This document shows positions 4,227 through 27,986 of a stretch of DNA of 35,963 nt, one piece after another (positions within the stretch are counted from its first letter, which is position 1; every line of letters begins with the position of its first letter). Below the pieces are notes generated by a model, which saw nothing but the letters and a program-made list of their open reading frames with translations, had not been told where the DNA came from and searched no databases. Source of the stretch: a virus; IMG/VR virus record IMGVR_UViG_3300030090_003295, positions 1 to 35,963 of that record. One strand, 5' to 3'. The position numbers were made by a program, and so were the translations under genes.

Positions 4227-4687
4227 ATTGTTTTATATTTAGTCTTATTATATTCGTCTTTATAAGCCTTTAGACATCTGTTTCTGTTATCTTCTTCTGA
4301 TACGTATGATATATGTACCCAGTTAGGATTCATGTCTGTTCCAAATTCCCATATCATTTGATCAAAATTTAAATTTTCTTTTATCCATGTGTACATTTCT
4401 GCATTAGTTTTACAACCATATACATCATCAATATCAATTGCTTGTCCTTTACAATGTTGAGATGTTTTTGATCCGCCAATAGCTTCGTTAAGCTCTGGTG
4501 ATCTAAAAAATGAATTAATTTTTATTGGTCCACCAACCCACTCTCTTAATGGTTGAAATATTTTTTCAGCAGTTAACTTCATATTTTCTACTTGTGTAGG
4601 ATTAGGTGTATTGTCTATACCTTTACGCTTAGCAGTTTGTGAATGTATTGCTTCAGCATATGTAATATTTTTACTTATATTTTCCAT
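4223..4687 (-). CDS. M15-family zinc peptidase (phage endolysin)
   Basis: A 154-aa peptidoglycan peptidase of the VanY/M15 type, expected to cut D-Ala-D-Ala or L-Ala-D-Glu bonds during lysis. The signature SxHxxGxAxD is present as SQHCKGQAID, with zinc ligands H78 and D85. The third ligand is H125 in WVHISY, and E114 in IWEFG is the likely general base. Upstream, residues 30-70 (KLTAEKIFQPLRE...INSFFRSPELN) match the usual helix and substrate strand of this family. There is no signal peptide, so release would need a holin; the single-span protein at 5913-6197 is the nearest candidate. Unlike its neighbours it has a purine-rich AGAGGAG about 10 bases before the ATG, although this also encodes the end of the preceding gene. 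It overlaps genes on both sides by 1-4 bases. Confidence 0.88.
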   Translation of the reverse strand: MENISKNITYAEAIHSQTAKRKGIDNTPNPTQVENMKLTAEKIFQPLREWVGGPIKINSFFRSPELNEAIGGSKTSQHCKGQAIDIDDVYGCKTNAEMYTWIKENLNFDQMIWEFGTDMNPNWVHISYVSEEDNRNRCLKAYKDEYNKTKYKTI

Positions 4688-8375: not shown

Positions 8376-8453
8376 TTATTTATATTTTTTAAACATTAAT
8401 TTATATAGCAATTTGTTCCAAGCTTGCTGTAACTTGTCTATGAATTTTTTCAT
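8376..8453 (-). CDS. 25-aa cationic amphipathic micro-ORF coupled to the giant gene
   Basis: The ATG at 8451-8453 overlaps the TGA stop (8450-8452) of the 3012-aa gene in an ATGA junction, the standard sign of translational coupling. The peptide, MKKFIDKLQQAWNKLLYKLM followed by FKKYK, has eight Lys and regularly spaced Phe, Ile, Leu, Trp and Tyr, giving an amphipathic helix. The next gene starts one base beyond its stop, so it exactly fills what would otherwise be the only gap in this part of the operon. Function is unknown; membrane binding is plausible from composition. Confidence 0.5.
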   Translation of the reverse strand: MKKFIDKLQQAWNKLLYKLMFKKYK

Positions 8454-11400: not shown

Positions 11401-14400
11401 TTTGATAATGTATACTGTCTGGATTTTGATCTGCTTTTGCTAAAGGTAAACCTAAATGCTCTGCTACAGTTACTACTTCACCATTATCATCTAGCATTAT
11501 ATAAGAATTTAAATCAATATTAGGATTACCTAATAAATATCTTACCCACGCATTAGGGTTTTTCATTCCCCAAAATATACCTGGTTGTCTTTCTTGAAAA
11601 CCAGCTTTAGTAATTATATTATCATCTGTTTTTAATAATTGACCTTGTATATAATTATCTGCTAAAAATTTAAAATCTTTATCAATAGTGTTGTTTATCA
11701 ACATATCTATAATAGCTCTAGCAACATTGTTAACAGGTAACATATGTTCTGCTTCATAATTTTTAAGAGCTCCTTCAACCAGTTCGTTATCTTTTTTTCT
11801 AACATTTAATATAGGTGTTGTAAAAGGTAGGGTAGAAGTAGAGAAAAATTTAATAGGAGCTAATACTCTTAAATCGTGAGTTGGTATATTGCCTTGACTT
11901 TCTATCCATGCAGCCCAAAATTCTAATCTAGCTGAAATAATGTCACCATCTTTCTTACCACCTCTTATATCTTTATCTATTCTTTTAACTATTTTTTCTA
12001 ATACTTTAACTTTATCGTTTTGTAGTTTTTGAAACTTAGGATCTTTTAAAGTCTTTCTTCTTTCAGCAGCTGTTTGTTTAGCATATTTCTGCTGTTCAGT
12101 TCTTGCCGTGCTTAAAACATCCCATTCTGCCTTGGTTAAAGCTTTACCTTGTTTTGGTATTTTTGTTTTATCTAAGAAGTATTCATTACCAACTTTTTTA
12201 GCATACTTATCTATAAAAGCTTTATTATTTTTTACAAAATCAACATCTAAAGGCTTGTTATATATTTGGTTTTCAAAACCTTCAGGATCATTCTTTGATT
12301 TTTTTAACCCACTAGATGGAAACATAGATTTACTATGTTTAAACCAAGAATAAGAATTAAAGAAATCTGTTCCAAACTCAGGAAGCATTCTAATAACAGC
12401 TTCATTTCTTTGTTTCTTTTGTTCATCTGAAAATGTATCAGACCAATTAGATTTAGTAGAAGGATAAGGGTTATAACCGTTATCTCTTAATATTTCTTTA
12501 GGTTTTTTAAGAACTGTTCTACCTACTCGTTGAAAGTCTTTGCTTTCAAACATCTTAGTAATATCTGTTTCGCCTTCAGTTTCTATACTAAGTCTAACAT
12601 CATCTAACGATGTGTCTTCTAAATTTCTTTTATCTAACGCAAACTCTAGCTCAGCCATAAACTGTTCAGCATTTAAATTAGAATCTCTAAAATCTAATCT
12701 ATTCTGCAAGTTGTTCATGAACTCTTGATCAGCAGCTATTTCGTTCATACCTTCTACAGCTAAACCTTCACCAATTAAACTCATTAATGATTGATGACGT
12801 TTTTCACCTGCTAAAAAGTATTGTTTTACTTTTCTTAATTTATTATCAGTTATAGCTGGTATCTGATATACTTGTTTATTAAAATCAGTACGCTTACCGT
12901 TTTCTATTTTAATAGTTGGTGTGGTACCTGTTTGCTTTATACCAAATAATTTACCAAATCTACGTTTAATATTAGCAACTGGTATTGATTTAATAAAATT
13001 ATTATTATTAAATAATTTGTTTACATTGTCTATATATTGTTCGCTTCCAAAAGGTCCTAATGCTTTTTTAATTATAGCTCTATATTCTTTTGTTTTAGTT
13101 TTTTCTACTATATATTTAGCTACTTTTTTAGGATCTGTACCAACTCTTAATATAGCTTCAGTAATATCATTTTTTAAGAAAGCTATTTGTTCGGCTCTTA
13201 TTTCACCTGTTATATTGTCAGATATTACTTTTATTGAATTAGGAAAAACCTTAGCTCTAGGACGTCTTTCTTTTGCAGCAGGCTTTTCATCAAAGTCCGT
13301 TTGCGTAGTTGTATCTGCTACTTGTCTTGCTTCATCTCTATCAATACTTCTAGCTTCGCCTTTACCTAAATTTTCTCTTGCTATTCTACCAGCCTTTATA
13401 TTAAATAAATTACTTGTTTGTTGACCTGGACCTAATAAATTTACATCCTGTTCTTCATTATATTTTTTAAGAGTTAATAAATATTCATTTTTTAAAGCTG
13501 TTCTAAATTGAGATTTAGTTAACAAACTACCTGGTCTATATAGTCTGTTTAATGTAGCTTCTATTACAGGAGCTGCCGCAGCTAAAACTCTATTTTGATC
13601 AAAAGTATTATCTAAATCAAAATCAGGATCGTTTATTAAATTATCTACTTGACCATATGAATCAACAACTTCTTTGCTTTCTAATTGATTATCTTGTTGA
13701 GCATCACCTCTATCTATTACATTACCCTCAAGATCTGTAATACTAGTATCAGTATCTAAAGCTATATTTACATCTGCAATACCAAAAGTACCCTTACCTT
13801 TAGCTAAATTTTGTAAACCTCTTGATAAACCTTTACCGCTTTCTACTGCTAAGTTGTAATCTCTTACTAAATTTAAAACATCTGCTCCACTATTAAATCC
13901 TAATTGAAAACCTAATGAAGAAAAGAATCTTCTAAATGCATCACCAATTTTTGTACCTGTATCTTCGTTTATAACAACACCGTTTCTAGTCATAGCTTCA
14001 CTTAGCAATGGCATTATTTCTTCAAGTACTACATTGTCACTTATTTTAGGATCATTTATATACTGGTTAAGTCGCGCCCCTAATTCATTGGTCATAATAG
14101 TTATTTTACCACTATTAACTCCATTTCTTATTTCTTTAAGTAAAGCTTTACCTAATCTAGCACTAGCAGTAGGATCTCTTCTTACTAACGCATCTAATAA
14201 ACCATGAAAACCTTCGTGTTGACCAGTAGTAAAAAACCCTTTTTTAGATGATTTAGCTGTATCTATTAACGCATATTTTTTTCCATTAGCAGTTACAAAA
14301 GCACCAAAACCTATACTTCTATCTACATTTGCGTTGGGATCTTCCTTTTTTAATTCAGCTATTTTAGCTTCTATTTCAGTAGTATTTCCTTCTATATACG

Positions 14401-17400
14401 CATAACCTATTTGTTCTGCTATTTTTTGATTACCAATATTTAAATCTGCTGTGTACAATAAAGCTAAATCTGTTTTTAAATCTTCTATTTGTACATCTAT
14501 TGCGCTGTGAAACTCAGGTGCTAAATCTTTTTTACTTGCATTTAAATCATCAATTTGTTGTAATAATTGACTTATTTCTAAAGTGTTTTCTGTTTTTATC
14601 CAACTAGGTAATTTAAAAACTTGATTTTTTAAAGCAATAGCATCGTTATAAAATTGATCAGCAGCAGATAGTTCTAAATCTCCTGCAGCAACCATTTGAT
14701 CTAATAGCTTTTTTAATTTTGCTGGACTTTTACCTAACAACATCAAATCTTGTATGTACTGTTGACTGTTAGTGTTTATTCCTCCAGTTGCCAATAAACC
14801 CATGCTACCTCCAGCAGCAAAAGAATAAATACCTGTATTAATAGCTTCATCACGAGTAAAATCCTCATCTAATAATTTTTTACCTACTACATTATTTAAA
14901 ATGGGATTTATTAATTCTTGCTGTCCACCTTCTTGCAATTCTTCTTGTAAAGTTTCTAAACTACCAGCTACTACTACATTGTATAATTTATTAAACACGC
15001 CTCTTGAAGTTGGACTTAAATTAGTAAAATAATTTCTCCAATAACTATTATAACCTTTCATTCCTCCTTTTTTAAAGGCATCTATAGATCTATTAGCAAC
15101 TCCTCTAAAACCTGATACAGCCCAAGGAATTTTATCATAAATAGCTTGTGGCGTGGCAACACTTGTTAAAAACCACCAACCACCTTGTAAAAGACTAGCT
15201 TGATTTGCTAACGATCTAGCATCCTCATCTTTTAAACCAGCTCCAATTGCAGTTTTATAAGTATTAATATATCCATCAGCCGCACCAGCAAAACCATAAT
15301 AACTAGCTGTATTAAGAAGATTACTTGCTGTTTTTACTTGAGAAGGATTAAATTTAAATCTAGAGTTTGCTAAAGATGTTTCAATTCTTTGAGTTAAACC
15401 TGTTTTTTTACCAGCCCATCTTGTAGCAAAGGTACCTGTAATATCAAATATTAAACCTCCCCATACAACTCCACCCATTCTTATTTGATCTCCAACAGAA
15501 ATCATTTTACCACGAGTTTCACTATTATCTAAAGCTGTTTTTACTTTTTCGTATTCTTCAGGGTTATCTGGTACATATTGTATTTCAAATTCTGAATCAT
15601 AAATCATACCAGAATCATCCATGATAAATGTTTTATTAACACCGTCTATTTCAACACTAGCTTCAACTCCTGTTACAACACCAGGAGTACCTATATAAGT
15701 TTCATTATAATAACGATCATCTACCATGTCGCTAAACAAACTGCTTTGAGTGTTAAATAAATCAGCATCGTTGTCATACCATGAGTAAGCACCTGATATT
15801 ATTCTTTTATTAAAATTAATTATATTACTAAATCTATCTGCAAATCCTTTGCCAAAATTAGTAAAAAAGTTTTCTTCAAACACCTGCCCTTTACTTTCAC
15901 CTCCTTTTACTCTAACAGAGTTTTTTCTTCTTTGCTCTTCAATACTTGCTCTAAAACTATAATAATCATTAAAATTATCTTTTTGATAATCTTTCCAAAT
16001 TTTTCTATTAAATTTAGACAAACTAAATAAATAATCTACAGCTTCTGATTCTGTTATATCATTTCCTAATGACGCAGCTAAATCTTCTCTTACCGCGTTT
16101 AACAAATCCTCATTCATATACCAGTTGGTAAATGATATTTTTTCTATTTCTCCAAATGTAGTTATTTGTTCACCATTTGCTAATTTTCTATTTAATTCCT
16201 TTATATGCTTTTTATATTTATGTACATTGCTTTTAAAATAATTACTTAGTAAATAAATACCATTTTTAATTTCTTCTTGTTTTATGTATTGGTTAAGTAT
16301 TTCTACTACATTACCTTCTTTTACTGCATTTACTTGTCCAATATCACTTTTATCATCAAGTAATTTAAAATTTTCAGGTAAATTAGTTTTCCATGGAGTA
16401 TTTTTTCCGCTTTGTGATTGAATATAGCTATCAATAATATCATTTAAATCAAAATTGTTTGGTTTATTTAATTGAACCCAAGCTAAAAAAGATTCTAATT
16501 TAACACCTAATGCATCTAAATTATTAGGTAATTCACTTGTGTTGCCAAATATTATATCAAATACAGCTAAATCATTATCCGCGTCTACATCTAAATCTTT
16601 TAATACGTTCTGCACATAATCAGAACCAGCTTCTCCTGAATAACTCCAACCGCTTAAATCATATTGTTTATCATAATTTTGAGATATAAACATTGCGTTT
16701 TCTCCACTTACATCTACCATGAGATCAAAACTTTGTTCAGTAACATCTGATTTACTAATAGTTTCTAAAAAATCATCACTACCAGATAATATATAACCCT
16801 CATCAATAGCGTTTTTAGCCGATTTATTTATAGACTTAAGATCATAAAGTTGATTATCAAGTTTTCTAAGCCGCTGCATATTAAGAAGATCATCTACATC
16901 GTATTCTTCATTTTGATCAAACAATATTTGTATATCAAACATTGATTGCTTATCTTTAACTTGCTTCCATTCATCTTCTTGAGTATCTCTATAATAATAT
17001 TGTAATATACCCTCATCAGAAAAATCAAACTTATAAAAACCTCCATGAGTATCAAACTCTGTTTCTTCACCTGGTTGGGCAATTTTAGTAAAAGGTTCTA
17101 ATGATTTAGCTACTCTATCTCTTTGAGCCTGTATAGAATTATTAAAAGCAATAGCTTGTGGTTTCCATTCATCATCAGGTAATTCTGCTATATTCCACAT
17201 TCCAGTATTTTGATTCCAATATTTTTCTGCTTCAATTCTAGCAAAAACATCAATACCTATTGATCGTCCTATTTCAGGATAAAGACTAGTATTACGAGAT
17301 TCTTCTACTTTATTTCTAAAACCTTCACCTTCAAATATTCCTGTAGAAATTTCATCAAACCAATCTTGATCTGCCACTCTTTCAGTTTCTGGTGCTTCTG

Positions 17401-17488
17401 TTTCCTCGACCTCTACCTCTGCGTTTGGAAGAACTGCTTTTTCTTCTTTATCAGGATCTTCAAATAATATATCAAGAGAGTCTACCAT
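8450..17488 (-). CDS. Giant 3012-aa virion/ejection protein with zincin and HAD phosphatase motifs
   Basis: A very large multidomain protein encoded after the internal-virion genes, as large ejection proteins of podoviruses are. The N-terminus is acidic (residues 1-45). Residues ~670-905 hold several hydrophobic segments (VVWGGLIFDITGTF, LLQGGWWFLTSV, YSFAAGGSMGLLATGG). HEGFH at 1091-1095 fits an HExxH zincin, with a possible third ligand in the later EEIMPLLSEAM helix. A complete HAD set follows: D2119 and D2121 (FDFDDT), T2198 (LTARP), K2235 (SPEAKA) and D2254-D2255 (FADDAL). Further hydrophobic segments lie at ~2755-2826, before a basic, Pro-rich end. The layout matches what are called large polyvalent proteins of phages, carried in the virion and injected with DNA. 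I found no RNA-polymerase signature. It begins 9 bases after the 516-aa gene stop and is coupled to a micro-ORF at its end. Confidence 0.85.
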   Translation of the reverse strand: MVDSLDILFEDPDKEEKAVLPNAEVEVEETEAPETERVADQDWFDEISTGIFEGEGFRNKVEESRNTSLYPEIGRSIGIDVFARIEAEKYWNQNTGMWNIAELPDDEWKPQAIAFNNSIQAQRDRVAKSLEPFTKIAQPGEETEFDTHGGFYKFDFSDEGILQYYYRDTQEDEWKQVKDKQSMFDIQILFDQNEEYDVDDLLNMQRLRKLDNQLYDLKSINKSAKNAIDEGYILSGSDDFLETISKSDVTEQSFDLMVDVSGENAMFISQNYDKQYDLSGWSYSGEAGSDYVQNVLKDLDVDADNDLAVFDIIFGNTSELPNNLDALGVKLESFLAWVQLNKPNNFDLNDIIDSYIQSQSGKNTPWKTNLPENFKLLDDKSDIGQVNAVKEGNVVEILNQYIKQEEIKNGIYLLSNYFKSNVHKYKKHIKELNRKLANGEQITTFGEIEKISFTNWYMNEDLLNAVREDLAASLGNDITESEAVDYLFSLSKFNRKIWKDYQKDNFNDYYSFRASIEEQRRKNSVRVKGGESKGQVFEENFFTNFGKGFADRFSNIINFNKRIISGAYSWYDNDADLFNTQSSLFSDMVDDRYYNETYIGTPGVVTGVEASVEIDGVNKTFIMDDSGMIYDSEFEIQYVPDNPEEYEKVKTALDNSETRGKMISVGDQIRMGGVVWGGLIFDITGTFATRWAGKKTGLTQRIETSLANSRFKFNPSQVKTASNLLNTASYYGFAGAADGYINTYKTAIGAGLKDEDARSLANQASLLQGGWWFLTSVATPQAIYDKIPWAVSGFRGVANRSIDAFKKGGMKGYNSYWRNYFTNLSPTSRGVFNKLYNVVVAGSLETLQEELQEGGQQELINPILNNVVGKKLLDEDFTRDEAINTGIYSFAAGGSMGLLATGGINTNSQQYIQDLMLLGKSPAKLKKLLDQMVAAGDLELSAADQFYNDAIALKNQVFKLPSWIKTENTLEISQLLQQIDDLNASKKDLAPEFHSAIDVQIEDLKTDLALLYTADLNIGNQKIAEQIGYAYIEGNTTEIEAKIAELKKEDPNANVDRSIGFGAFVTANGKKYALIDTAKSSKKGFFTTGQHEGFHGLLDALVRRDPTASARLGKALLKEIRNGVNSGKITIMTNELGARLNQYINDPKISDNVVLEEIMPLLSEAMTRNGVVINEDTGTKIGDAFRRFFSSLGFQLGFNSGADVLNLVRDYNLAVESGKGLSRGLQNLAKGKGTFGIADVNIALDTDTSITDLEGNVIDRGDAQQDNQLESKEVVDSYGQVDNLINDPDFDLDNTFDQNRVLAAAAPVIEATLNRLYRPGSLLTKSQFRTALKNEYLLTLKKYNEEQDVNLLGPGQQTSNLFNIKAGRIARENLGKGEARSIDRDEARQVADTTTQTDFDEKPAAKERRPRAKVFPNSIKVISDNITGEIRAEQIAFLKNDITEAILRVGTDPKKVAKYIVEKTKTKEYRAIIKKALGPFGSEQYIDNVNKLFNNNNFIKSIPVANIKRRFGKLFGIKQTGTTPTIKIENGKRTDFNKQVYQIPAITDNKLRKVKQYFLAGEKRHQSLMSLIGEGLAVEGMNEIAADQEFMNNLQNRLDFRDSNLNAEQFMAELEFALDKRNLEDTSLDDVRLSIETEGETDITKMFESKDFQRVGRTVLKKPKEILRDNGYNPYPSTKSNWSDTFSDEQKKQRNEAVIRMLPEFGTDFFNSYSWFKHSKSMFPSSGLKKSKNDPEGFENQIYNKPLDVDFVKNNKAFIDKYAKKVGNEYFLDKTKIPKQGKALTKAEWDVLSTARTEQQKYAKQTAAERRKTLKDPKFQKLQNDKVKVLEKIVKRIDKDIRGGKKDGDIISARLEFWAAWIESQGNIPTHDLRVLAPIKFFSTSTLPFTTPILNVRKKDNELVEGALKNYEAEHMLPVNNVARAIIDMLINNTIDKDFKFLADNYIQGQLLKTDDNIITKAGFQERQPGIFWGMKNPNAWVRYLLGNPNIDLNSYIMLDDNGEVVTVAEHLGLPLAKADQNPDSIHYQNELLLKVLAPDAFPDEDAMTIEKAKQLLKDSNTVNKKSSKQVTINKKTLFDLIDSDGDTEASIKAMNDADTTADLARRYSKEPKGISVFDFDDTLAYSDSKVLVKLATGEIIKITPAEFANQAEDLEANGAEFDFSEFNKVVNGRKGPLADLALKRQDKFGSGDIFVLTARPQLSAVAIKKFLDGIGLNIPLGNITGLENGSPEAKALWILDKTAQGYNDFYFADDALANVQAVKNVLDQVDVKSDIQQARSSKEVDLDKDFNVIIEQQSGKEWFKTYSDARAKVEGKKANRFEFIIPPSAEDFLGLMYKLLPKGKDGDRALVWIKENLINPFNRAEQEVIAAKIAASNDFKALRDSLENIPDNLQDEIGYSNYTYSQALRVFMWDSQGMEIPGLSTRDRKKLVSLIANDPDMRIFAEKIIFIQKGKGYPGPKDGNWVGGSITGDIINSIQKTYRKEALAEWQQNVDIIFSKKNLNKLEALYGSNYVVALKNILARMKSGSNRAQSGNPQVDNVIDWINNSVGTTMFLNRKSALLQLISNVNFINWSDNNLIMAGKAFANQKQYWKDVMYLMNSDYLVQRRNGMKINVAESEIAEASKKGGLKGVISYLLNKGFVFTRIADSIAIATGGATFYRNRLNRLLKEINPDTGKLYTQKEAERKAFDDFYQISEETQQSSRTDRISMQQASGLGRIVLNYANTPMQYARIIKRSTQDLLAGRGDWKSNVSKIVYYGAVQNLIFNALQQALFALAFGDEEEQKKAQNREDRAANIGFGMLSSLLRGLGYGGALVDTLISMSREISIREDGLPDFGDDFAWNMFDFSPTVDTKVRKVRSVRKTFKYNRDEIKRRGFSLENPAYYALAQVIDAGFNIPLDRAMRMTMTLMQMADRDTAMWQRFALALGWSSWSVGLPYWGTPTTVGNEAQEDANREKDYKENTTKLKDKGYKRIPMTKGKPSGKLNEDFIEVIRPNGKVEYWIIPKMKIK

Positions 17489-17497
17489 ATAATTTTA

Positions 17498-19048
17498 TTA
17501 AGAATATTGTTGAATTAACGCTTGTAATTGTTCGTCAGGTTGTTCTGGTATAGCTTTAACTTCTTCTGGAAGTTTTTGATAATAAATAGGCATTCCAGCT
17601 TCCCATTCTTTAACACCTAACATTGTTTTATAAAACTCAGGTATAGGTAATTCATTGTCATTTAATGCTTTTATTAAATCTTGTCCTTGACGAGTTTTAT
17701 CTGATAATATTTCTTTTACAATAACAGGTTGATTAGCATAATTTTTTTGAGGTAATTTTTTATCTAAATTACTTTGTAATATAATACTCATCATATAAGC
17801 TTTTTGCGCGTCAATTAAACTTATATATCTTCCATCATTACTTACTTTGTTGTACATGTATCTATTACCTATAAAACTTACTTTACCTTCAGGACTTAAT
17901 TCATTGTATAATTTTTCTAATTCAGGAGTTACTGATTCATTAATACCTACTGGTAAATCTAATCCTAATCTTTTATTAGAATAACCATATAAAACAGATA
18001 TATTACCTCCTGCTACTGCAAATAAACCAGCTATATGAGATTGAATAGATATATTATATGCTGGTGTATTATTTATAGCTTCTGTATTTATAGGTTTTAC
18101 CATGTATCTTTTTACTTTACCATTATCAACTGAATACATAGGAATTTTAATAGATGTATCTTGCGCTGGATCAGAGGCGTCTTCTGACAAAGGAGTTCCG
18201 CCTAAAAAGTATTGAGGTTGTAAGGTTGCATTTTTAGTAATACCCGCGTCATCAAATGTGGTTAATAAATCCATGGATTTAGGCACATCACTTATATATA
18301 ATGTTAATAAGTCTCCGTTTTGTAATTGATTAGAATTAATTTCCATGTCTATATAATAATACATTAATCCATCTTCACCTTTTATAATATTTTTATTTCT
18401 TAAAAAATCATCTACCACATATGGTTTTAAATGTAAGTATTTTCTAAAGCTTTCACCTTTAATTTGAAATAAAACTCTTTGTGTAAAAACTAATATTTCT
18501 CCATTTGTAGTAGGAGAAAAGTAATAACTTTTTTCTACATCAATATCTTCAAAATAATTAAACAAATCAGCCCATCCAGCAACCATAAACATATTTCTAT
18601 CTCTATTTCTTTCAGATGTTCCGTTTATATTTAAATTATCATAGTTAGCGATAAAGGTTGGTAAATTATCTGGAAATAAAGGCTCAATAGCTGAGGTTAA
18701 ATATCCTCCTAATTTTAATATTAAATCTAATCTATTAAAATATTCATCAATATCTTTTTGCATAGATTTAATTTCTAGTTGACTTAGATTTTTTATATTT
18801 AATTTAAGCGCTGTTTGCTTAGCAATAACACCATCAACAGGTCGTTGAGCTTCTTCAATAAAATCAGTTTTAACCATTTCTGCTAAACTTGGATTTTCAA
18901 AAGGATTAAATGCAATTCCTCCTGTTAAATACGCTCTATAGTTATTACTAGCTTTTGTAAAAAAGTCTAATTCAACACTTCTTCTAGCTGATGATAACGA
19001 TGATAAACGTTGTATTTTTTTATTATGTGCTTCTATTAATGTATTCAT
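17498..19048 (-). CDS. Virion protein of unknown function, 516 aa (probable ejection/cargo protein)
   Basis: A 516-aa soluble protein, MNTLIEAHNKKIQRL and so on, between the gp14-like protein and the giant protein. This is the place of a second internal-virion protein in T7-like gene order and of cargo proteins in crAss-like phages. The first ~120 residues are helical (SLAEMVKTDFIEEAQRPVDG, LEIKSMQKDIDEYFNRLDLI). The middle is mixed alpha/beta (EILVFTQRVLFQIKG, YYYIDMEINSNQLQNGDLLTLYI). A weakly hydrophobic Gly/Ala stretch at ~340-355 (IAGLFAVAGGNISVLYG) could be membrane-active. The C-terminus is Pro/Gln-rich (LPEEVKAIPEQPDEQLQALIQQ). There is no signal peptide and no recognised enzymatic motif. 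Assignment to the virion rests on context. Confidence 0.7.
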   Translation of the reverse strand: MNTLIEAHNKKIQRLSSLSSARRSVELDFFTKASNNYRAYLTGGIAFNPFENPSLAEMVKTDFIEEAQRPVDGVIAKQTALKLNIKNLSQLEIKSMQKDIDEYFNRLDLILKLGGYLTSAIEPLFPDNLPTFIANYDNLNINGTSERNRDRNMFMVAGWADLFNYFEDIDVEKSYYFSPTTNGEILVFTQRVLFQIKGESFRKYLHLKPYVVDDFLRNKNIIKGEDGLMYYYIDMEINSNQLQNGDLLTLYISDVPKSMDLLTTFDDAGITKNATLQPQYFLGGTPLSEDASDPAQDTSIKIPMYSVDNGKVKRYMVKPINTEAINNTPAYNISIQSHIAGLFAVAGGNISVLYGYSNKRLGLDLPVGINESVTPELEKLYNELSPEGKVSFIGNRYMYNKVSNDGRYISLIDAQKAYMMSIILQSNLDKKLPQKNYANQPVIVKEILSDKTRQGQDLIKALNDNELPIPEFYKTMLGVKEWEAGMPIYYQKLPEEVKAIPEQPDEQLQALIQQYS

Positions 19049-19756: not shown

Positions 19757-20161
19757 TTAAATTATTTTTACTATTTCATGTGATGGTTTTTCATCTACTT
19801 TCCATCCTAATTTTTTATGTGTGTTTATTAAATGTTTACTTCTACCTATACTAAACATATATTGTTTATCTTGTTTTTTACAAACTGCTTCTATAGTATT
19901 TAATAATAATTCTACAGCTTGTTTTCTATCTTTATTTTTATAGTCTGGATTAGAAACAATCCATTCTACTACTACCGCGTCAGAATTTGTATAATATATA
20001 AACCCTGCTACAATAGGTACATTTTCTTTTTCTATCATTATTCCACCAGTACCATTATCTGGTAAAAAGTTTTTAGGAATAGGTGTCCAACGCCACCACT
20101 TCCACCAATTAACTAAACAATCATAATCTTTATCGTTTAGTTTACGTGCATTAAATTTCAT
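19757..20161 (-). CDS. GNAT-fold acetyltransferase-like protein
   Basis: A 134-aa protein with the outline of a GNAT N-acetyltransferase: an N-terminal strand and helix (FNARKLNDKDYDCLVNWWKWW), strands at residues ~40-75 (GGIMIEKENVPIVAGFIYYT, AVVVEWIVSNP), then a basic KNKDRKQAVELLLNTIEAVC helix where the pantetheine-pyrophosphate loop and alpha-helix A should be, and a final strand pair. The usual Q/RxxGxG/A loop is replaced by YKNKDRKQA, so acetyl-CoA binding may be altered. The WWKWWRWTPIP segment near residues 18-30 is distinctive. Small GNAT-like proteins of this kind sit among tail genes in many marine phages; a virion-protein or host-protein target is possible. It lies between the nozzle and the ejection proteins. 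Confidence 0.65.
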   Translation of the reverse strand: MKFNARKLNDKDYDCLVNWWKWWRWTPIPKNFLPDNGTGGIMIEKENVPIVAGFIYYTNSDAVVVEWIVSNPDYKNKDRKQAVELLLNTIEAVCKKQDKQYMFSIGRSKHLINTHKKLGWKVDEKPSHEIVKII

Positions 20162-20165
20162 ATAA

Positions 20166-21572
20166 TTATCTATTAGAATATACAGCGCCTACACTAAATA
20201 ATTGCTTAGCGCTTTGTACTGCTGTATTTGAATCTTGTTGCATTGTTAATGTTAAAAATTGAGCTTTTAAACCAGTTGTTTGACTGCTTGTTAATACTTG
20301 ACCACCAAGCGTGCCATCACCTGTACCTTTAATAGCAGCATAATAAATATTTTGTTTTCTATTAAAACCAGCTCTATATTCTATACCATTTTCAGTATAG
20401 TAACCATCATCATAGCTTAATATTGTTTGACCTCTATCTGTATAAGTAGTATCTCCTAATCCAGGTTGTTGAGGGTTTGTGTCTATACCTGTATAGTCGG
20501 AAGCAAGTAATTGAGCTCTCCAACCATTACTACCAGTATAATTAATAGTTGTAAAAGTTTTTGTTCTTACTGGGTCAGGGTTAAATACAAATGATACTGA
20601 AGAATATCTTTGAATACCGTAAAAATTATTATAATTAGAAGTATCAGCATTTTGTTGCCAAATAGCTTGATCTTTAAAAGTATAATATAAACCTCTTGAA
20701 CTAGTTGATAAATCTGGTGCATATTCCATTCTACTTACCCAACCATTAATAATATCATCAAACACTACAGTAGGAGCAGAAAAACCGTCCTCTATAGTTA
20801 ATGTATAATTTTTATTATAAACATCGTACCCAGCTGTTATAAAAGAGTCTTGTGATAATTTATCTCTAAAATAATCTATCATACCATAATTAGAAATAGG
20901 ATTTAAACCATTAGGTCCTAATTGTAGAACCACGCCTCTATCTCTATCAGTAAAATATTTATTATACCCATAATGAGCAAATGAACCTGGATCTCTTGAT
21001 ATACCAAAGTTTCCTTCAAAAGCAGATGGTGTACCTACAACTGTTTTAGCATCTGTAGATAATGGTAAACCTTCTTGTGTAAATATAACATCTTTATCTA
21101 CTGGTGCTCTATTTACTTTTCTTTCTTGTAGTATAATTAAATTAGTATTTTCTGCAAATAATTTTTGTATACTTCCTGAAGCAGGATCAACTGATCTTGT
21201 AATTTCTTCACCAATAGGAAATTGATTAGTATTATTAATACCATTCTTAGCATTATATACACCAGAATATATTATAGAGCTTTGTCGTCTAGTTTGTCTA
21301 TCTTCTTCTTCTACAATGTAAGCTTTGTTACCAAAGTCTACAGACGTGTTATTAAAACCACCTTCTATTCTTGCTTCTTCTAAAAACCAGTCTTCAAAAA
21401 CATTAGATTCTATATAACCTTCACCAGTTGTAAGATCTGGAGTACCAATAGTTGTTCCTCCACTTTCAACATCAACTGTACCATCTGGTTGTCTTTCTTG
21501 ATATAAAGTAAAGTTTTTTAACCTCTTTAACCAGAATGTATTAAAGTATGATACTTCTAATGTAGTTGCCAT
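20166..21572 (-). CDS. Tail nozzle/propeller protein, second subunit
   Basis: A 468-aa beta-rich protein. Motifs I associate with nozzle (muzzle) proteins of Bacteroidota short-tailed phages are visible in order: EDWFLEEARIEGGFNNTSVD (residues ~60-80), SIIYSGVYNAKNGINNTNQF (~98-118), SVDPASGSIQKLFAENTNLI (~125-145), YGYNKYFTDRDRGVVLQLG (~205-225), SNYGMIDYFRDKL (~230-243), GYDVYNKNYTLTIEDG (~250-266), GWVSRMEYAPD, and SSVSFVFNPDPVRTKTFTTI (~330-350). These repeats suit a beta-propeller ring at the tail tip. The gene begins 29 bases after the 1704-aa gene stop. In relatives I recall, these parts may sit in one longer protein, so this could be the detached C-terminal half of a nozzle. No catalytic motif. 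Confidence 0.75.
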   Translation of the reverse strand: MATTLEVSYFNTFWLKRLKNFTLYQERQPDGTVDVESGGTTIGTPDLTTGEGYIESNVFEDWFLEEARIEGGFNNTSVDFGNKAYIVEEEDRQTRRQSSIIYSGVYNAKNGINNTNQFPIGEEITRSVDPASGSIQKLFAENTNLIILQERKVNRAPVDKDVIFTQEGLPLSTDAKTVVGTPSAFEGNFGISRDPGSFAHYGYNKYFTDRDRGVVLQLGPNGLNPISNYGMIDYFRDKLSQDSFITAGYDVYNKNYTLTIEDGFSAPTVVFDDIINGWVSRMEYAPDLSTSSRGLYYTFKDQAIWQQNADTSNYNNFYGIQRYSSVSFVFNPDPVRTKTFTTINYTGSNGWRAQLLASDYTGIDTNPQQPGLGDTTYTDRGQTILSYDDGYYTENGIEYRAGFNRKQNIYYAAIKGTGDGTLGGQVLTSSQTTGLKAQFLTLTMQQDSNTAVQSAKQLFSVGAVYSNR

Positions 21573-21601
21573 ATATTATTATTACTCGTTTTATTAAATT
21601 A

Positions 21602-24600
21602 TTACAAAGGTCCGTTACAAGTTCCACATCCTCCAGGTGCTCCTGTTAACGCGTCATAAAAGTTAACATCTACTCTTGCACAAGTAAAACATCCTGACAC
21701 GCTACATCCATTACCATTATGAACACCATTTGTTCTTACCGCGTATTCACCAGGCGCACTAAAATAATAAGTTGCTGTAGCTGTAGAAGCTCCTGAAACA
21801 TTCACTGTTAAATTATTAAAACCTCCTACTCCACTTCCAGGATTTAAAGGTGATGAAGCATCGGCTGTGGCTATTTGCCAAGTATCTAAAGCAGTAGGTC
21901 TATACAGTATTGTATACTCAGTTACATATGTGTCAAGTCCTAATGCTGTAGGAGTTTTACTTAATGAAACCTCTATAGCTAATATTCCTTGAATTAAACC
22001 TCCAGTTGTAAATGCAGGAGTTACATTAATTAATGGTGGCGGTGGCGACGGATTTGTTTCAACACAAGTCCATCTGTTAGCAGCATATCTAGCTTCTTCT
22101 AAAACATTATAATAAGCTAAATCTATTCCATTATTACTAGATAAACCATAACTAGGTCCAGCGGCTCCTAAACCTGCATCAATTACGCTTGTAATTTCAT
22201 TGGTATCACTTCCTATAAAAGTTATTCCAGCATTACCTATAATTCCACAGTTTACATTTCTATTAGCACCAAAAAATACTTCTAATGGTTCACCTGTATT
22301 GTTAGTACATGTAGTATCAAGATTGCCCATCTGGCTTGTTGGTCCAAAACATAATGCTTGATTTACAGGTGGAGTTCCAAAAACTAATTCATAAACACAT
22401 GTATTTGTTAAACTATTAATATCATTACTACAAGAAGGAGAAGCGTCTGTTACTACACATTCTATTTCATAAGTACCGTTAACAGTTCCAGCTGTTGCAG
22501 AAACATTACCACTTTGATCAATACTCCATATAGCTGTAGAACCAAGCGGTTCATTAAGAACATTTAATTCATAACATAGTTCTAATGATTGTTGTGGTAC
22601 TGAAGCGCTACTATTTACAACGCTTGTAAATTGACCTAAAACACCTGTCATTGTAGTATTATAACCTGATGTTCCACCGAGTTTACCACAACCTTGTTCT
22701 ACTCCATTATCTGCTGAACTAGTTTGAGCAGGTGTAAAACCTCCTATTTCAGGAGCAACATTGTTAAGATCAATAGTAATTTGATTTGTTAAATTATCTA
22801 TAAATTCACCAGCTAAATAACTTGTTTGAAAACTAATAGTCCATTGATTAGAATGTGATCCACTAGATTTTAAATAAGCAAAATCTGTAGTAGTAGTTAT
22901 ATTAAAATCATCATAAGCAAAAGGAACTGTTGCGTCTATAGCAAAAATACCTGTAACATCTACACCGTTAGAGTTTAACACTTGTGTTATTATTGGAACA
23001 CCATCTAATGTTAATTCATTGGATGCAGAATCTGTAAAACTAAAAGAAGTTATAATTGTTGAACCTGACGCTTCGTCTTCATCAAAATTAGCACTTGTAA
23101 CAGTTGTACCTGATACACCTGCATAATCTGATAAAACTTGTCTATTTAAATTTACAAAATTACCTGAAGTAGATGATTCATAAAATATATCTAAATTACT
23201 TTCTACAGGTTCTGTTTCAGAAACAGATAAATAAGGATACATACAACCAATAGTAGCTGCTGCAGCTGGTATAATATTATTTGTAACTCTAGCTCCAAGG
23301 GTATTTAATATAGGATCTCCTTCTCTAGTTAAACTAGGTTGTGGTTCTTCAGTTCCTATTTTTAAACCTATAGCTGCTGGATTTTGTTGAACATCTATAA
23401 AGTTTTGATACCTTCCTGGAAAACCCCATGGTATTCTAGTATTAAAAGGTTCATTAGGCGCAGCTGGAACAGTAGTATCTCCAGCATTATTAAATTGACC
23501 CGGAGTAGCTTGACCACCTGAAGTAGTTCCAGGTTCAAAAGGAGAATTAGCTAGTTCTAATCCACCTAAACCTACATTTCCTATAGTCACTACTTCATCA
23601 CTAATTCTTCCTGGAAAATATTGAGTATTCCAAGCGTAAATTCTATTATCAAAATAAAAAGGTCCTCCTGGTTTATTGTTTCTATTTATAGAAGGATTAT
23701 TTACTCTACCAAATAATTTAACTGATGCGGAAAATTCTGTTTGTAATGGTCCTACTTCATTTAAATCTCTTGGTACTTTATTTACATTGTCTCCAATTAA
23801 CGTTGCAAATGCAACTCTACCAAAATCTGTAGCTTCTGTAACTGGATAACCTGAAACATAACCACCTAAATATACATTATAATATTCTTGTTCTTGTTGT
23901 TTTACAACAATTTTATATGATTGCCAACCTGTAACATTTACATCAAAGACATTTACCGTTATAACCGCGCTTAATCCAGCGCCGGTAGAACTAGCTTGAA
24001 ACAACTGTTGACCATCTACGTAACCACTTCCTCTATCTAATATTTTTAAACCTGTAATTACCCCAGCTGCTACTCCTACAACTTCTGTAGTTAATCCGCT
24101 TCCTAGCCCTAAATTACCTACTTGATAACCCCATGTAAGTACATCACCAATAGCATGACCATTTCCACCACTTACGATGTTTTGTATTTTATCTACACTA
24201 GTATCTGAATTAGATTTGTATAACCCTGGTTCACCAGTTAAAGAATCTTTTTGTAAAGTAGTTATACCATTATTTATTTTAACTCTTAAAACATTTCCTA
24301 ACCAAGAGTATATTCTATCTGTATTAGGTGTTATTCCAGTAACTTGATCAGCTTGAGGACCACCTACATCTTCCCAGTCTTTATAAGGTATATAAATAGT
24401 AGAACCTTTTTTATCTGGATTATCATCATTTATAGAAAGAACCACGCTTGAAGCTCTACCATATCTATCAGCTAACACAAAGCCAACTTGATAATTTCTG
24501 TTTTGTTTTAAAGAGTGATTAGGATATTGAGCGTAATTATTATATTCTACAGATTTATCACTTTGTATTACTTCAAAATCAATTCCATTAGGTGGAGTAT

Positions 24601-26716
24601 GTTTTTGTAAAAAATTAGCATACATTACTCTATTAGCAGTAACTTCTTGACCTAAAGCTTTTAAAGGTACATTATCGTAAACTCTATTTTGCTCGCTTGT
24701 TGGAATAGTTCTATAAGGTTTTATAGATTTATAATCAAAATTATAATACCATTGAGGACCAGCACCCAGCGATGTGTTAGGTATTTCTTCTATAAAAGAT
24801 AATAAACCGCTATTAATATCTATAACTTCTAATATTTTAGTACTTAACGCGTCAGATTCTTTATATAAAATTTCTAAACCTATTACTTTATAATTGTTTA
24901 TTAAATTATCTAATGATTCGGAAGCTGTTGCCCCACCGTCAGGTAAAGGTATTTTTAAAGAAACTGTATCTATTTTATTAGTAAACCATTCTACAATACT
25001 TGACTCATACGTGTTAATTTGATCTTGTAATGAATCATTTTTACCACCACCAAAATATCCATCATGTTTAGGTATAAAACATAATTGAGTATATGGAGCC
25101 GCTAAAGAATATTCATCATCTTCAAATTTAAATCTATAACTAAATCTTATAAATTTATCTTCTATTAAATCTGGATCTCCAGTAAACTCTTTTGGTGGAA
25201 CTTGTGCTAAACTATAATCTGGATTAGGAGCTATTGTAATATCAGCATTAATATCTATTAACTCTATTTCTTTATTTAAAGTTAGTTCTATTACTTGTCC
25301 ACCAACACCAATTGCAGTGTTAATTGACTGTATAGATTCTATTACTACTTCATCTGCTAGTAATATTTTTCCCGCTACAGTAGGGTTATTTGTTTCAGCT
25401 TGATCACTTATTATAAAATCTCCTACTCTAGGTGTAGGTAAAGGCGTAGGTTCATCAGTAGTATTTCTAAAATAATATTTAGCAGTAAGAGTATTACCTT
25501 GAGTAACTATTGTATTAGGAGCTGCGTTTACCGCTGTTGTATCAAAACCTCTATCTAATAATCGTTTAGATGAGTTACTCATTGATGGTCTACTAAACCT
25601 TAACTCTATATCAGTTGCTTCGTCCCATGTACCTGGTTGCATATTAGCACCACCATCACCATCTTTAAAATTGTTGTATATAGTTATTATTTCTGCAGTT
25701 TCATCTATATCAATAACATTCCATAACTCTTCTACTCCTTGCCCTGGAAAACCAGATACAATATCACCAATTTTAATAGTGCTTAAATCACTACCAGCCA
25801 ACATTGTCAAATCATAACCTCGTGCTACAGCACCTGGAGCAGTTGCTTGAGCTCCTGCATCTGCAGTTCTAATAGTTTGATTTAAAACTAAAGGTGTTTC
25901 GTATGGATAATATTTTGCTACTGATATTTGATCTTCATTCACATAATGTGATGGAAAAGGATCATTATTAGGATTAGCAAATTCTACATTTATTTTTCTT
26001 GGTTGATTGCGATTATCAGTCCAAAACAACAAATTATCTAATAAATTAGTAGCAAATATAGGATGTGATTGAGAAAAATTCAAAAATGAACCAATAGCTA
26101 ATAGTGTTAAAGTTTGAGTGTTAAGTTCATATCTATGAATTGTATTAGCCCAACCTATATTTATTGTATCTCCTGTAGGAGAACCTGCGCTAAAAATTAT
26201 AGGAACATTTAATGTTATATTAGTTAAGGTAATATTTACAATTACTGGCCCTATGAATACACTATCTGTAGAAGGTATGCCGTTCCACCCAGCATTGTCA
26301 CTCCACAAATTCATACCAAGTTCTATTCCTAAATTAGAAGGATTAAGTAAATTACCACTACTATCATAAAGTTCAATAGTTGTTCCTGATACTGGAGCTG
26401 CTGCTCCTGGCTCAGAAAAAACTTGAATATCTCTAGGACAAATATTTTCACCTGTATATCCAGCGCTATAAACATATAAAACATTATTAGTCTCGTCTGT
26501 GTACTGACCAATAACTTTTGCACCTGGTCCTGTTTTTAATCCTGAATTTGGTAATTGAATATTACCAGGTATATTCTCAAACTCTCCTACTTCGCTGCCT
26601 TCTGATCTACTAAGTTGTAAATTTTTAGCATCTCTATATTCACCGTTTGGTAACAATCTTGCGTCAAGGTCTTTATTCATTTTAGACCTTATAAACGTAT
26701 TAGTTACTTGTGGCAT
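21602..26716 (-). CDS. 1704-aa tail nozzle protein with Ig-like and Cys-rich C-terminal extension
   Basis: The N-terminus carries the nozzle signature KMNKDLDARLLPNGEYRDA (residues 12-30) followed by SRSEGSEVGEFENIPGN. This corresponds to the T7 gp12/P22 gp10-type tail tip start and is shared by Bacteroidota phage muzzle proteins. Residues ~30-1100 are almost all beta-strand with aromatic/Gly/Asn turns. The C-terminal ~600 residues differ: Thr/Ser/Gly-rich repeats, an Ig/PKD-like stretch around 1343-1446 (IWSIDQSGNVSATAG, YEIECVVTDASPSC), a PSPPPP linker near 1556-1561, a final beta-domain, and a Cys cluster (CSVSGCFTC, CGTC) at the extreme end. The extension probably projects from the virion and could bind the host receptor. 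Its start lies one base beyond the stop of the ring-protein gene. Confidence 0.8.
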   Translation of the reverse strand: MPQVTNTFIRSKMNKDLDARLLPNGEYRDAKNLQLSRSEGSEVGEFENIPGNIQLPNSGLKTGPGAKVIGQYTDETNNVLYVYSAGYTGENICPRDIQVFSEPGAAAPVSGTTIELYDSSGNLLNPSNLGIELGMNLWSDNAGWNGIPSTDSVFIGPVIVNITLTNITLNVPIIFSAGSPTGDTINIGWANTIHRYELNTQTLTLLAIGSFLNFSQSHPIFATNLLDNLLFWTDNRNQPRKINVEFANPNNDPFPSHYVNEDQISVAKYYPYETPLVLNQTIRTADAGAQATAPGAVARGYDLTMLAGSDLSTIKIGDIVSGFPGQGVEELWNVIDIDETAEIITIYNNFKDGDGGANMQPGTWDEATDIELRFSRPSMSNSSKRLLDRGFDTTAVNAAPNTIVTQGNTLTAKYYFRNTTDEPTPLPTPRVGDFIISDQAETNNPTVAGKILLADEVVIESIQSINTAIGVGGQVIELTLNKEIELIDINADITIAPNPDYSLAQVPPKEFTGDPDLIEDKFIRFSYRFKFEDDEYSLAAPYTQLCFIPKHDGYFGGGKNDSLQDQINTYESSIVEWFTNKIDTVSLKIPLPDGGATASESLDNLINNYKVIGLEILYKESDALSTKILEVIDINSGLLSFIEEIPNTSLGAGPQWYYNFDYKSIKPYRTIPTSEQNRVYDNVPLKALGQEVTANRVMYANFLQKHTPPNGIDFEVIQSDKSVEYNNYAQYPNHSLKQNRNYQVGFVLADRYGRASSVVLSINDDNPDKKGSTIYIPYKDWEDVGGPQADQVTGITPNTDRIYSWLGNVLRVKINNGITTLQKDSLTGEPGLYKSNSDTSVDKIQNIVSGGNGHAIGDVLTWGYQVGNLGLGSGLTTEVVGVAAGVITGLKILDRGSGYVDGQQLFQASSTGAGLSAVITVNVFDVNVTGWQSYKIVVKQQEQEYYNVYLGGYVSGYPVTEATDFGRVAFATLIGDNVNKVPRDLNEVGPLQTEFSASVKLFGRVNNPSINRNNKPGGPFYFDNRIYAWNTQYFPGRISDEVVTIGNVGLGGLELANSPFEPGTTSGGQATPGQFNNAGDTTVPAAPNEPFNTRIPWGFPGRYQNFIDVQQNPAAIGLKIGTEEPQPSLTREGDPILNTLGARVTNNIIPAAAATIGCMYPYLSVSETEPVESNLDIFYESSTSGNFVNLNRQVLSDYAGVSGTTVTSANFDEDEASGSTIITSFSFTDSASNELTLDGVPIITQVLNSNGVDVTGIFAIDATVPFAYDDFNITTTTDFAYLKSSGSHSNQWTISFQTSYLAGEFIDNLTNQITIDLNNVAPEIGGFTPAQTSSADNGVEQGCGKLGGTSGYNTTMTGVLGQFTSVVNSSASVPQQSLELCYELNVLNEPLGSTAIWSIDQSGNVSATAGTVNGTYEIECVVTDASPSCSNDINSLTNTCVYELVFGTPPVNQALCFGPTSQMGNLDTTCTNNTGEPLEVFFGANRNVNCGIIGNAGITFIGSDTNEITSVIDAGLGAAGPSYGLSSNNGIDLAYYNVLEEARYAANRWTCVETNPSPPPPLINVTPAFTTGGLIQGILAIEVSLSKTPTALGLDTYVTEYTILYRPTALDTWQIATADASSPLNPGSGVGGFNNLTVNVSGASTATATYYFSAPGEYAVRTNGVHNGNGCSVSGCFTCARVDVNFYDALTGAPGGCGTCNGPL

Positions 26717-26717
26717 A

Positions 26718-27986
26718 TTATCTTTTTATCCATTTAGATTTTCCACGCATTACTTGTACTATTTCATCTAACTTAACATTAGATAATCTAATTTTTGCGT
26801 TTCTTAATTTAGCACTTGCTTCTCTTTTTAATCTTTGTACTATATATTCAGGTTGATTTATTCTACTAGCAATTATAGCATGTGAAATATAAGCATATAA
26901 AGCAGCTTCTGCCATTTTAGGTATTCTACTATCTAAATCATAAGCAAGACCGTCAGAGATATATTCTAACACTATCTGTGCACCAATTAAATTACTTGAA
27001 AAAGATATTTTACCTTCTCTAGGGTTCATATTAAACCAACCATTATACTGAGCATACTGCGGTGACATACCATATTGTTCACCCCAACCCCAATACCAGA
27101 ATCCACCATAACCCCAGTTATATCCGGCCCAGTCCATACCTTCATTATATAAAGCAAAACTAGGTAAACCATTTACTAAATTAGTATTAGCTTGTTTCCA
27201 TTTTCTTTCAGTTTGTGATGTTCCTTCTAAATTATCTTCAAAATTATCCTGTGTTAATTGACCTAGATTATCTTGTAAAGGATTTTCATAAGGCGATATA
27301 GTTAAATTATTTGCTGGATATATAATTCTTTTTACTCCTAAATTATCTATACGTGATACTCTTACATAGTTTACATAATCTTGAGGTAATATATTATTTA
27401 AAGTATGTGGTACTGTAAGCTCTTGAGATTTTATAGATTTTAAAGTATCATAACTAAATTCTTGCAAACCACGTTTAGCGTGAAATATTATATCACTTCT
27501 TCTAATATTAGGTATTAATTTTTGCTCTCCTACATATCCTACTATAAAATTATTTACAATATCTTCTAAAGTCACATAGGCATAGCTACCATAATTTTCT
27601 TCTGTAGTTTCACCATACGCATCTCTATTACCAAAACTACCACCATCAATAGTTTTTAATTGACAAACTAAAACATGACTAGCAGGTAGATCTGCATTTA
27701 AACTAATTATACTGTTGTTGTTAGGTTGTACATCAAGAGTATAAGGATATTGAGCAGGCCAATTAGCAGCTGTAACCTCAGTATAAGTTATACCGTCAGC
27801 ACTAGCATAAAGCTTAAAATTGTTTAAAGCATAGTCTGCAGCATTTGGATCAGGCGAACCTAATACTAAAGGAGTGTCAAATGTAAAAGTAAAATCCTGC
27901 TGAAGTGCAGTTGTTAAAAACCCCTGCGCACCCGCGTAATATTGACTATTAGTTTCGGTGATTAATCCACCATTTGGCATTGGCAT
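26718..27986 (-). CDS. Tail adaptor/ring (stabilization-type) protein
   Basis: A 422-aa protein with two parts. Residues 1-125 are beta-rich and look like a carbohydrate-binding or Ig-type decoration (FTFTFDTPLVLGSP, NNFKLYASADGITYTEV). Residues 125-422 are the conserved body: VTLEDIVNNFIVGYVGE (~138-154), RRSDIIFHAKRGLQEFSYDTL (~161-181), a Trp/Tyr/Gly-rich insertion (GYNWGYGGFWYWGWGEQYG, ~287-306), and a C-terminal helical module, IPKMAEAALYAYISHAIIASR then LKREASAKLRNAKIRL. This resembles ring/stabilization proteins that bolt the tail to the portal in crAss-like and related short-tailed phages. It sits between the other adaptor and the nozzle gene, as expected for a portal-proximal tail ring. 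Confidence 0.7.
   Translation of the reverse strand: MPMPNGGLITETNSQYYAGAQGFLTTALQQDFTFTFDTPLVLGSPDPNAADYALNNFKLYASADGITYTEVTAANWPAQYPYTLDVQPNNNSIISLNADLPASHVLVCQLKTIDGGSFGNRDAYGETTEENYGSYAYVTLEDIVNNFIVGYVGEQKLIPNIRRSDIIFHAKRGLQEFSYDTLKSIKSQELTVPHTLNNILPQDYVNYVRVSRIDNLGVKRIIYPANNLTISPYENPLQDNLGQLTQDNFEDNLEGTSQTERKWKQANTNLVNGLPSFALYNEGMDWAGYNWGYGGFWYWGWGEQYGMSPQYAQYNGWFNMNPREGKISFSSNLIGAQIVLEYISDGLAYDLDSRIPKMAEAALYAYISHAIIASRINQPEYIVQRLKREASAKLRNAKIRLSNVKLDEIVQVMRGKSKWIKR

Follow-up and report, generated by a model that had tools for sequence, protein, structure and literature searches.

CrAss-like phages rank among the most abundant phage groups, and few of their tail proteins are as strongly conserved as the muzzle, which is thought to gate ejection as a hexamer at the tail tip. 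In gp44 of crAss001, the G-H insertion (residues 940-1012) is part of the distal crass domain, a cell contact has been proposed for the muzzle tip, and muzzle length is noted to vary through insertions in the crass and IG2 segments (PMC10172136). In tail-associated proteins of crAss-like phages, BACON tandem repeats have been gained repeatedly, partly by horizontal transfer (PMC6949934). A single continuous chain is a trait of all characterized muzzles, one that lies outside the Pfam and PHROG definitions, and no published report of a split muzzle was found in the open-access literature searched, which is not proof of absence. Here, we describe a muzzle encoded by two adjacent genes in IMG/VR virus record IMGVR_UViG_3300030090_003295, a linear viral record of 35,963 bases that was analyzed in full (the window) and is probably a fragment, since it lacks end repeats. 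The upstream gene product (P1, 1704 amino acids (aa)) consists of an N-terminal muzzle part (the P1 core) and a C-terminal extension (X), and the downstream product (P2, 468 aa) supplies the C-terminal part of the muzzle family. With a probability of roughly 0.68, we propose that the two products form a muzzle of two chains that bears an adhesin-like arm at its tip, and that this arm probably makes a secondary or triggering contact beside a separate tail spike.

Results

A sequence-only reading of the window had suggested that a nozzle is split over these two genes, and both open reading frames (ORFs) were confirmed on the minus strand (Table 1). Profile searches bore out the split, with P1 and P2 matching opposite ends of phrog_14478, a 1474-aa single-chain family of crAss-like muzzle/nozzle proteins: P1 from profile position 3 onwards (E 1.1e-35) and P2 over positions 912-1225 (E 1.8e-41). 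These matches are far stronger than chance would give. P2 additionally carries the Pfam domain crAss_MUZ_C (PF25729), which scored 47.1 bits (cut-off 27), and the N-terminal and C-terminal muzzle families are both present, in order, across the two products. Residues 1-785 of P1 were aligned to residues 1-411 of the muzzle of Cellulophaga phage phi38:1 (hhalign, E 1e-52), and the P2 profile matched gp44 1055-1295 in the PDB (E 2.3e-12); single-sequence searches with P1 and P2 against the PDB gave no match, whereas the profiles did. Residues 188-467 of the P2 model, the mean predicted local distance difference test (pLDDT) score of which is only 59, superpose on gp44 1118-1371 (Z 16.7, root-mean-square deviation 2.6, 233 residues). 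No confident alignment was obtained between P1 residues ~763-1192 and the crass-fold region of gp44 (453-904).

Relatives were collected by the hundreds from viral-contig scans, and the P1 core, X and P2 profiles were run on all fetched loci. We refer to the cut of the window's clade as site 1 and to that of a second clade, to which the Manatee Spring phage ctfjg026 belongs, as site 2. In every relative, the C-terminal half of the family is absent from the P1 core and the N-terminal half from P2, and together they make up one single-chain muzzle in order. This complementarity, and a correlation of 0.89 between the identity matrices of P1 core and P2, make it most improbable that P2 is an independent protein, such as a second nozzle or a chaperone, that does not complete the P1 chain, a view which could draw on P2 having its own start codon and stop and being conserved as a unit. 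P1 and P2 would instead be two chains of one muzzle that assemble non-covalently.

Alignment with single-chain muzzles, a check that the sequence-only reading had proposed, brings both halves into one family and locates the cut. In the single chains, FETIPVNDDSQLFFE is followed by about 30 loop residues and then LTLPVYNAFAWGN, as seen in phi38:1. The flanking strands are recognizable on both sides of the cut in the window, with ETEPVESNLDIFYE before and TLEVSYFNTFWLKRL after it; the P1 core ends in ETEPVESNLDIFYESSTSGN and P2 starts with MATTLEVSYFNTFWLKRL. Since these strands match the single chains on both sides, the cut lies in one loop. In gp44 numbering, the cut tentatively maps to ~930-960, in or beside the G-H insertion.

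All complete members of the window's clade share the two-gene form and its cut, each encoding two ORFs in place of a single chain; this was seen at 72 loci, some of which overlap as parts of one contig. Across these loci the Met start codon of P2 and the spacer are conserved, and the reading frames differ. Recurrence at dozens of loci from different assemblies rules out a frameshift or mis-assembly. Introns and inteins are a known feature of gut crAss-like phages (PMC7886860), which lends some plausibility to a spliced gene. An intron or intein is nevertheless ruled out by an Rfam search of the window and four relatives that gave no match, by the 29-bp (base pair) spacer, which is too short, and by X, which is predicted to fold as beta domains and gave no endonuclease or intein match. 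An artefactual or spliced origin of the split is hence hardly credible, even though a break in the muzzle gene of Maribacter phage Panino, a genome sequenced by MinION (PMC11590407), looks like a frameshift. Panino was rejected as an independent split, as its break is a one-base frameshift and the muzzle ORF of its nearest relatives is single and unbroken, with 1297-1333 aa where complete (L244-L247, L250).

The C-terminal extension postulated for the first protein exists, although it spans nearer 510 residues than the ~600 first estimated. X is missing in all single-chain relatives and in two loci of the window's clade (L015 and L021); the X profile picks up most of the site-1 clade, and in hhalign comparisons X matched none of the single-chain, site-2 or gp44 muzzles. 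Structure prediction, which had also been suggested as a check, yielded an AlphaFold2 model (mean pLDDT 83.5) with two tandem cadherin-like domains, a low-confidence stretch and then a beta-sandwich. The cadherin-like pair, where pLDDT is mostly 90 or more, resembles protocadherin 5szr_A (Z 9.6 (VIA) over 196 residues) and, in a Foldseek search, 5czr_C (E 2e-8) and the staphylococcal adhesin SraP (4m03, TMt 0.63), and the X profile matched cadherin-17 in the PDB (E 1.5e-4). Pfam Cadherin was found in X of 6 of 42 relatives (best E 2.5e-4), and the window's X has no Pfam Cadherin match. On the strength of the model, we predict confidently that X starts with tandem cadherin-type beta-sandwich domains, in line with the Ig-like character first ascribed to it. 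The predicted C-terminal beta domain is less certain; it has a weak profile match to FN3 of gp130 (E 0.011-0.03). The Cys-rich end noted in the window corresponds to a Cys-Gly-Pro-Leu end that is widespread among relatives. The PSPPPP linker, also noted there, was not found in six relatives checked. X has no conserved stretch usable for an alignment scan, and a scan of X alone against viral contigs returned two loci only, both on already known muzzle contigs.

Outside the window's clade, the muzzle is encoded by a single gene in phi38:1 (1324 aa), Tenacibaculum phage Gundel_1 (1386 aa), Flavobacterium phage elemo (1470 aa) and crAss001 (1371 aa), so that P1 and P2 do not have separate full-length homologues in all relatives; the presence of such homologues throughout would have spoken against the sequence-only reading. 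For the phylogeny, we took the 479-aa virion structural protein as the major capsid protein, an assignment based on position and phrog_13704. In the capsid-protein tree, the window's clade forms one group (100, starred), the two split clades are adjacent and each well supported, and the single-gene lineages fall outside; a single-gene muzzle is thereby supported as the outgroup state. In the site-2 clade, the cut lies ~270 residues further downstream in a propeller loop, the upstream piece carries an unrelated extension of 270-700 aa, and many loci hold an extra gene of 0.55-1.65 kilobases (kb) between the muzzle pieces. Pfam gave no match at E 0.1 or below on these extensions and intervening genes. 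Each split clade is unbroken across the cut of the other, and the cuts are therefore separate events. The unlabelled family phrog_18548 corresponds to the C-terminal muzzle fragment of the site-2 clade (L005:17218-18021 and other site-2 loci).

A third case is provided by locus L251, which lies within the phi38:1 group of the capsid-protein tree (100, starred) and is 47% identical to phi38:1 in the core and 52% in the downstream piece. It carries a 451-aa extension at the second loop, the first 250-270 residues of which match the extension of the site-2 clade (32%, E 1e-24). YVITLGD is followed there by the extension, a stop, an ATG and TITYDDGVKGWTSF, and phi38:1 is uninterrupted at this point. 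On alignment, L251 shows a module and a gene split at the same point of an otherwise single-chain lineage. As judged from these sequences, splitting occurred on three or more occasions and at two loops, and every time the upstream piece bears an extension. The earlier suggestion that a module was acquired in the middle of an ancestral single gene, thereby splitting it, is partly supported by the single-gene outgroup, the clean cut in one loop, the adhesin-like module at the cut and the independent splits of other lineages, including L251. Among basal site-1 forms, none was found with a split but no arm, or with an arm but no split; the module may have caused the split or may have arrived after it.

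In pairs of relatives with capsid proteins 85-99% identical, median identity was 88 for the capsid protein, 71 for P2, 61 for the P1 core and 50 for X, the least conserved structural segment. X also turns over. In L015 and L021, the core alone makes up the whole of P1 (1160 and 1144 aa, respectively), which stops about ten residues beyond an ESSTS motif, and the extension of L019 goes unrecognized by the X profile; all three loci are placed among X-bearing relatives. With its low median identity, and being at times missing or different, X is not strongly conserved; strong conservation across different hosts was what the sequence-only reading had named as a refutation. L015 and L048 exemplify the exchange: they share 94% DNA identity from the portal to the ring genes (measured on L050, on the same contig as L015) and a capsid protein that is 99% identical, yet their P1 cores are only 60% identical and X is present in L048 only. 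Identity matrices of P1 core, X and P2 correlate mutually at 0.73-0.89 (P1 core with X, 0.79) and with that of the capsid protein at 0.21-0.25 (X, 0.21), whereas capsid protein and ring core correlate at 0.81. The capsid grouping of the clade is rejected on P2 (approximately unbiased test, p 2e-59). Taken together, these results show that the tail-tip genes are exchanged as a cassette, independently of the capsid genes, and the two chains evolve as one unit. Faster divergence and exchange than in capsid genes thus apply to X, but are common to the P1 core and P2.

The sequence-only reading had seen no separate tail-fibre gene and had considered X a possible receptor-binding device. Within the window, indeed, no S74 match was obtained and no fibre family was recognized among the window proteins scanned, as would be expected if X were the only receptor-binding device of the phage and no fibre gene existed. 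The clade tells otherwise. Its member G001 (62.5 kb), which is probably a complete genome given its 146-bp terminal repeats (99%), encodes a 1225-aa protein upstream of the terminase and beside GroEL/GroES that combines an S74 intramolecular chaperone with a strong match to the tail-spike family phrog_4636. S74 was also matched above the cut-off in three further contigs of the clade (G009, G011, G012), and below it in one more. Because the window stops inside the terminase gene and the spike gene lies upstream of it in G001, the missing fibre gene is an effect of truncation, and X is not needed to supply the sole receptor binder. Such a role is contradicted for the clade and very improbable for the window. 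As a general caution, a fibre gene missing from a metagenome contig may reflect truncation.

Table 1. Coordinates of the muzzle genes, their parts and the adjoining ring protein in the window
Feature	Position	Strand	Basis or remarks
P1, 1704 aa	21602-26716	minus	ORF
P1 core, residues 1-1195; N-terminal muzzle part (ring-joining/propeller start and crass-type middle)	23132-26716	minus	phrog_14478
Extension X, P1 residues 1196-1704 (~510 aa), appended at the chain break	21605-23131	minus	
Two predicted tandem cadherin-like/Ig-like domains of X, P1 ~1196-1447	22376-23131	minus	AlphaFold2, fold search
Predicted C-terminal beta-sandwich of X, P1 ~1577-1689, perhaps FN3-like	21650-21988	minus	strands pLDDT mostly 73-94
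Conserved C-terminal end of X, CGTCNGPL	21605-21628	minus	alignment A1, 42 relatives; consensus C....GPL
Spacer between the muzzle genes, 29 bp, AT-rich	21573-21601	minus	29-34 bp in most site-1 relatives; 10 bp in X-less forms
P2, 468 aa; C-terminal muzzle half (end of crass/IG2 region and remaining propeller)	20166-21572	minus	phrog_14478 912-1225
crAss_MUZ_C domain, P2 313-415	20328-20636	minus	PF25729
Ring protein	26718-27986	minus	directly upstream of P1; extra ~118-aa N-terminal domain; phrog_13977 covers residues 120-411 only

On the minus strand, the window runs from the terminase gene, within which it breaks off, through portal, a 402-aa protein, the 479-aa virion structural protein and ring proteins to P1, P2 and cargo-type genes. 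The order of ring protein, muzzle and cargo genes is thus present, with genes at 17498-19048 and 8450-17488 downstream of the muzzle. The ring protein is 398-422 aa long in the window's clade versus 269-308 aa in relatives outside it. Its extra N-terminal domain is missing in single-gene relatives, gave no Pfam or PHROG match and resembles, by eye, the T7 fibre anchor domain; it could be a docking site for a spike.

Several further observations concern the surrounding genes and relatives. A 134-aa gene (19757-20161, phrog_17252) follows the muzzle in many relatives and is annotated as "acetyltransferase subunit" in one of them. The 3012-aa cargo-type protein (8450-17488) is very variable in length (1691 aa in phi38:1, 2307 in G001, 2396 in L021). 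A peptidase M15 gene (4223-4687, Pfam E 7.8e-18) likely encodes an endolysin. The genes between the site-2 muzzle pieces (L103:11660-12574, L121:5912-7561, L171:8397-9920) have weak PHROG matches only and are possibly another tip module. The last part of the L251 extension (L251:10184-11524) contains DSSGSM, by eye a von Willebrand A-type adhesion motif, for which Pfam gave no confirmation. The hosts are likely Bacteroidota, judging from the isolated relatives and from Bacteroidetes/Flavobacteriaceae metagenome bins that hold P2 relatives. P2 relatives also sit in Woesearchaeota and Ilumatobacteraceae bins, probably through mis-binning, and the same probably applies to two contigs of the window's phage clade (L252, L253) in the genome collection that are binned as Woesearchaeota in PBPJ01.

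Discussion

We propose that the muzzle, which gates the crAss-like podovirus tail at its tip, would here be built from two non-covalently assembled chains. Chain 1 would join the ring and supply the tip domain along with the first blades of the propeller, and chain 2, starting at the strand after the cut loop, would supply the rest of the propeller to the C-terminus. The ancestral connecting loop would have been opened, with chain 1 continuing into an arm of ~510 aa, the first part of which is predicted to be two cadherin-like domains. Since the cut lies in or beside the distal-tip region of gp44, the arm should protrude at the tip. It would most likely provide an accessory contact with the cell surface, either for secondary binding or for triggering the gate, beside a separate S74-type spike.

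Several of our results weigh against this proposal. Relatives carry a spike, so X is not required as a receptor-binding device, and X can be missing altogether (L015, L021). The gp44 position of the cut is approximate, as its numbering rests on a weak alignment, and the N-terminal 192 residues of P2 are poorly modelled on their own. The divergence of X, which had been expected if it binds receptors, is the highest of the segments compared; P1 core residues 72-213, 356-497 and 853-923, however, diverge as fast as X, and fast change is therefore not specific to it.

Ordinary gene fission, neutral or aiding assembly, might also account for the locus, in which case X would stabilize or space the tail tip, or else contact the spike or the N-terminal domain of the ring protein. 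Virions are commonly decorated with cadherin-like and Ig-like domains that are structural, binding could be left to the spike, and among near relatives much of X shows about the same degree of conservation as the core. X also co-varies with the P1 core. A structural element of this kind is less easily reconciled with the loss or replacement of X in loci where the split persists (L015, L021, L019), with its standing as the least conserved structural segment, with a pattern of cassette exchange that is usual for host-range genes, or with the unrelated extensions that other lineages have added at their own cuts. On balance, we consider a purely structural X unlikely and favor the adhesin-like arm.

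More tentatively, the muzzle may have two preferred loops that were opened, at least three independent times, by a C-terminal adhesin-like module together with a stop and restart. A two-chain gate could then plug interchangeable arms into the tip, with the tip cassette being swapped independently of the capsid. The arm has been lost, replaced and gained independently, and this provides natural pairs with and without it, such as L015 and L048, for testing tip contacts. Moreover, unlabelled families such as phrog_18548 are explained as muzzle fragments, and the function label of phrog_18548 can be filled in.

Comparison with known systems

The tail nozzles T7 gp12, P22 gp10 and SU10 share the propeller fold, to which the P2 model was matched at Z 10-12, but they are single chains without a crass domain or an X-type extension. 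The BACON repeats in tail-associated proteins of gut crAss-like phages are candidate host-binding domains too; they belong to another domain family and are not located at a muzzle break. The muzzle of crAss001, gp44 (PDB 7qok, 7qol, 8ckb; PMC10172136), is like that of the window in its C-terminal half, in its gene position after the ring protein and in its N-terminal family. It is, however, one 1371-aa chain without a cadherin-like arm, whereas in the window muzzle the chain break lies near the crass/IG2 segment and the arm follows it. Gene order around the muzzle (ring protein, muzzle, cargo genes) in phi38:1, elemo and crAss001 matches that of the window. The closest isolated relatives are phi38:1 gp097 (Pervagoviridae) and elemo gp22, in which the strands flanking the cut are recognizable, although each is one chain of 1324-1470 aa with no extension at the window's cut loop. 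The muzzles of ctfjg026 and the other site-2 phages are likewise split and likewise bear an extension on the upstream piece; they differ in being cut ~270 residues further on, in carrying an unrelated extension, in often having an extra gene between the pieces, and in a small downstream piece that matches phrog_18548.

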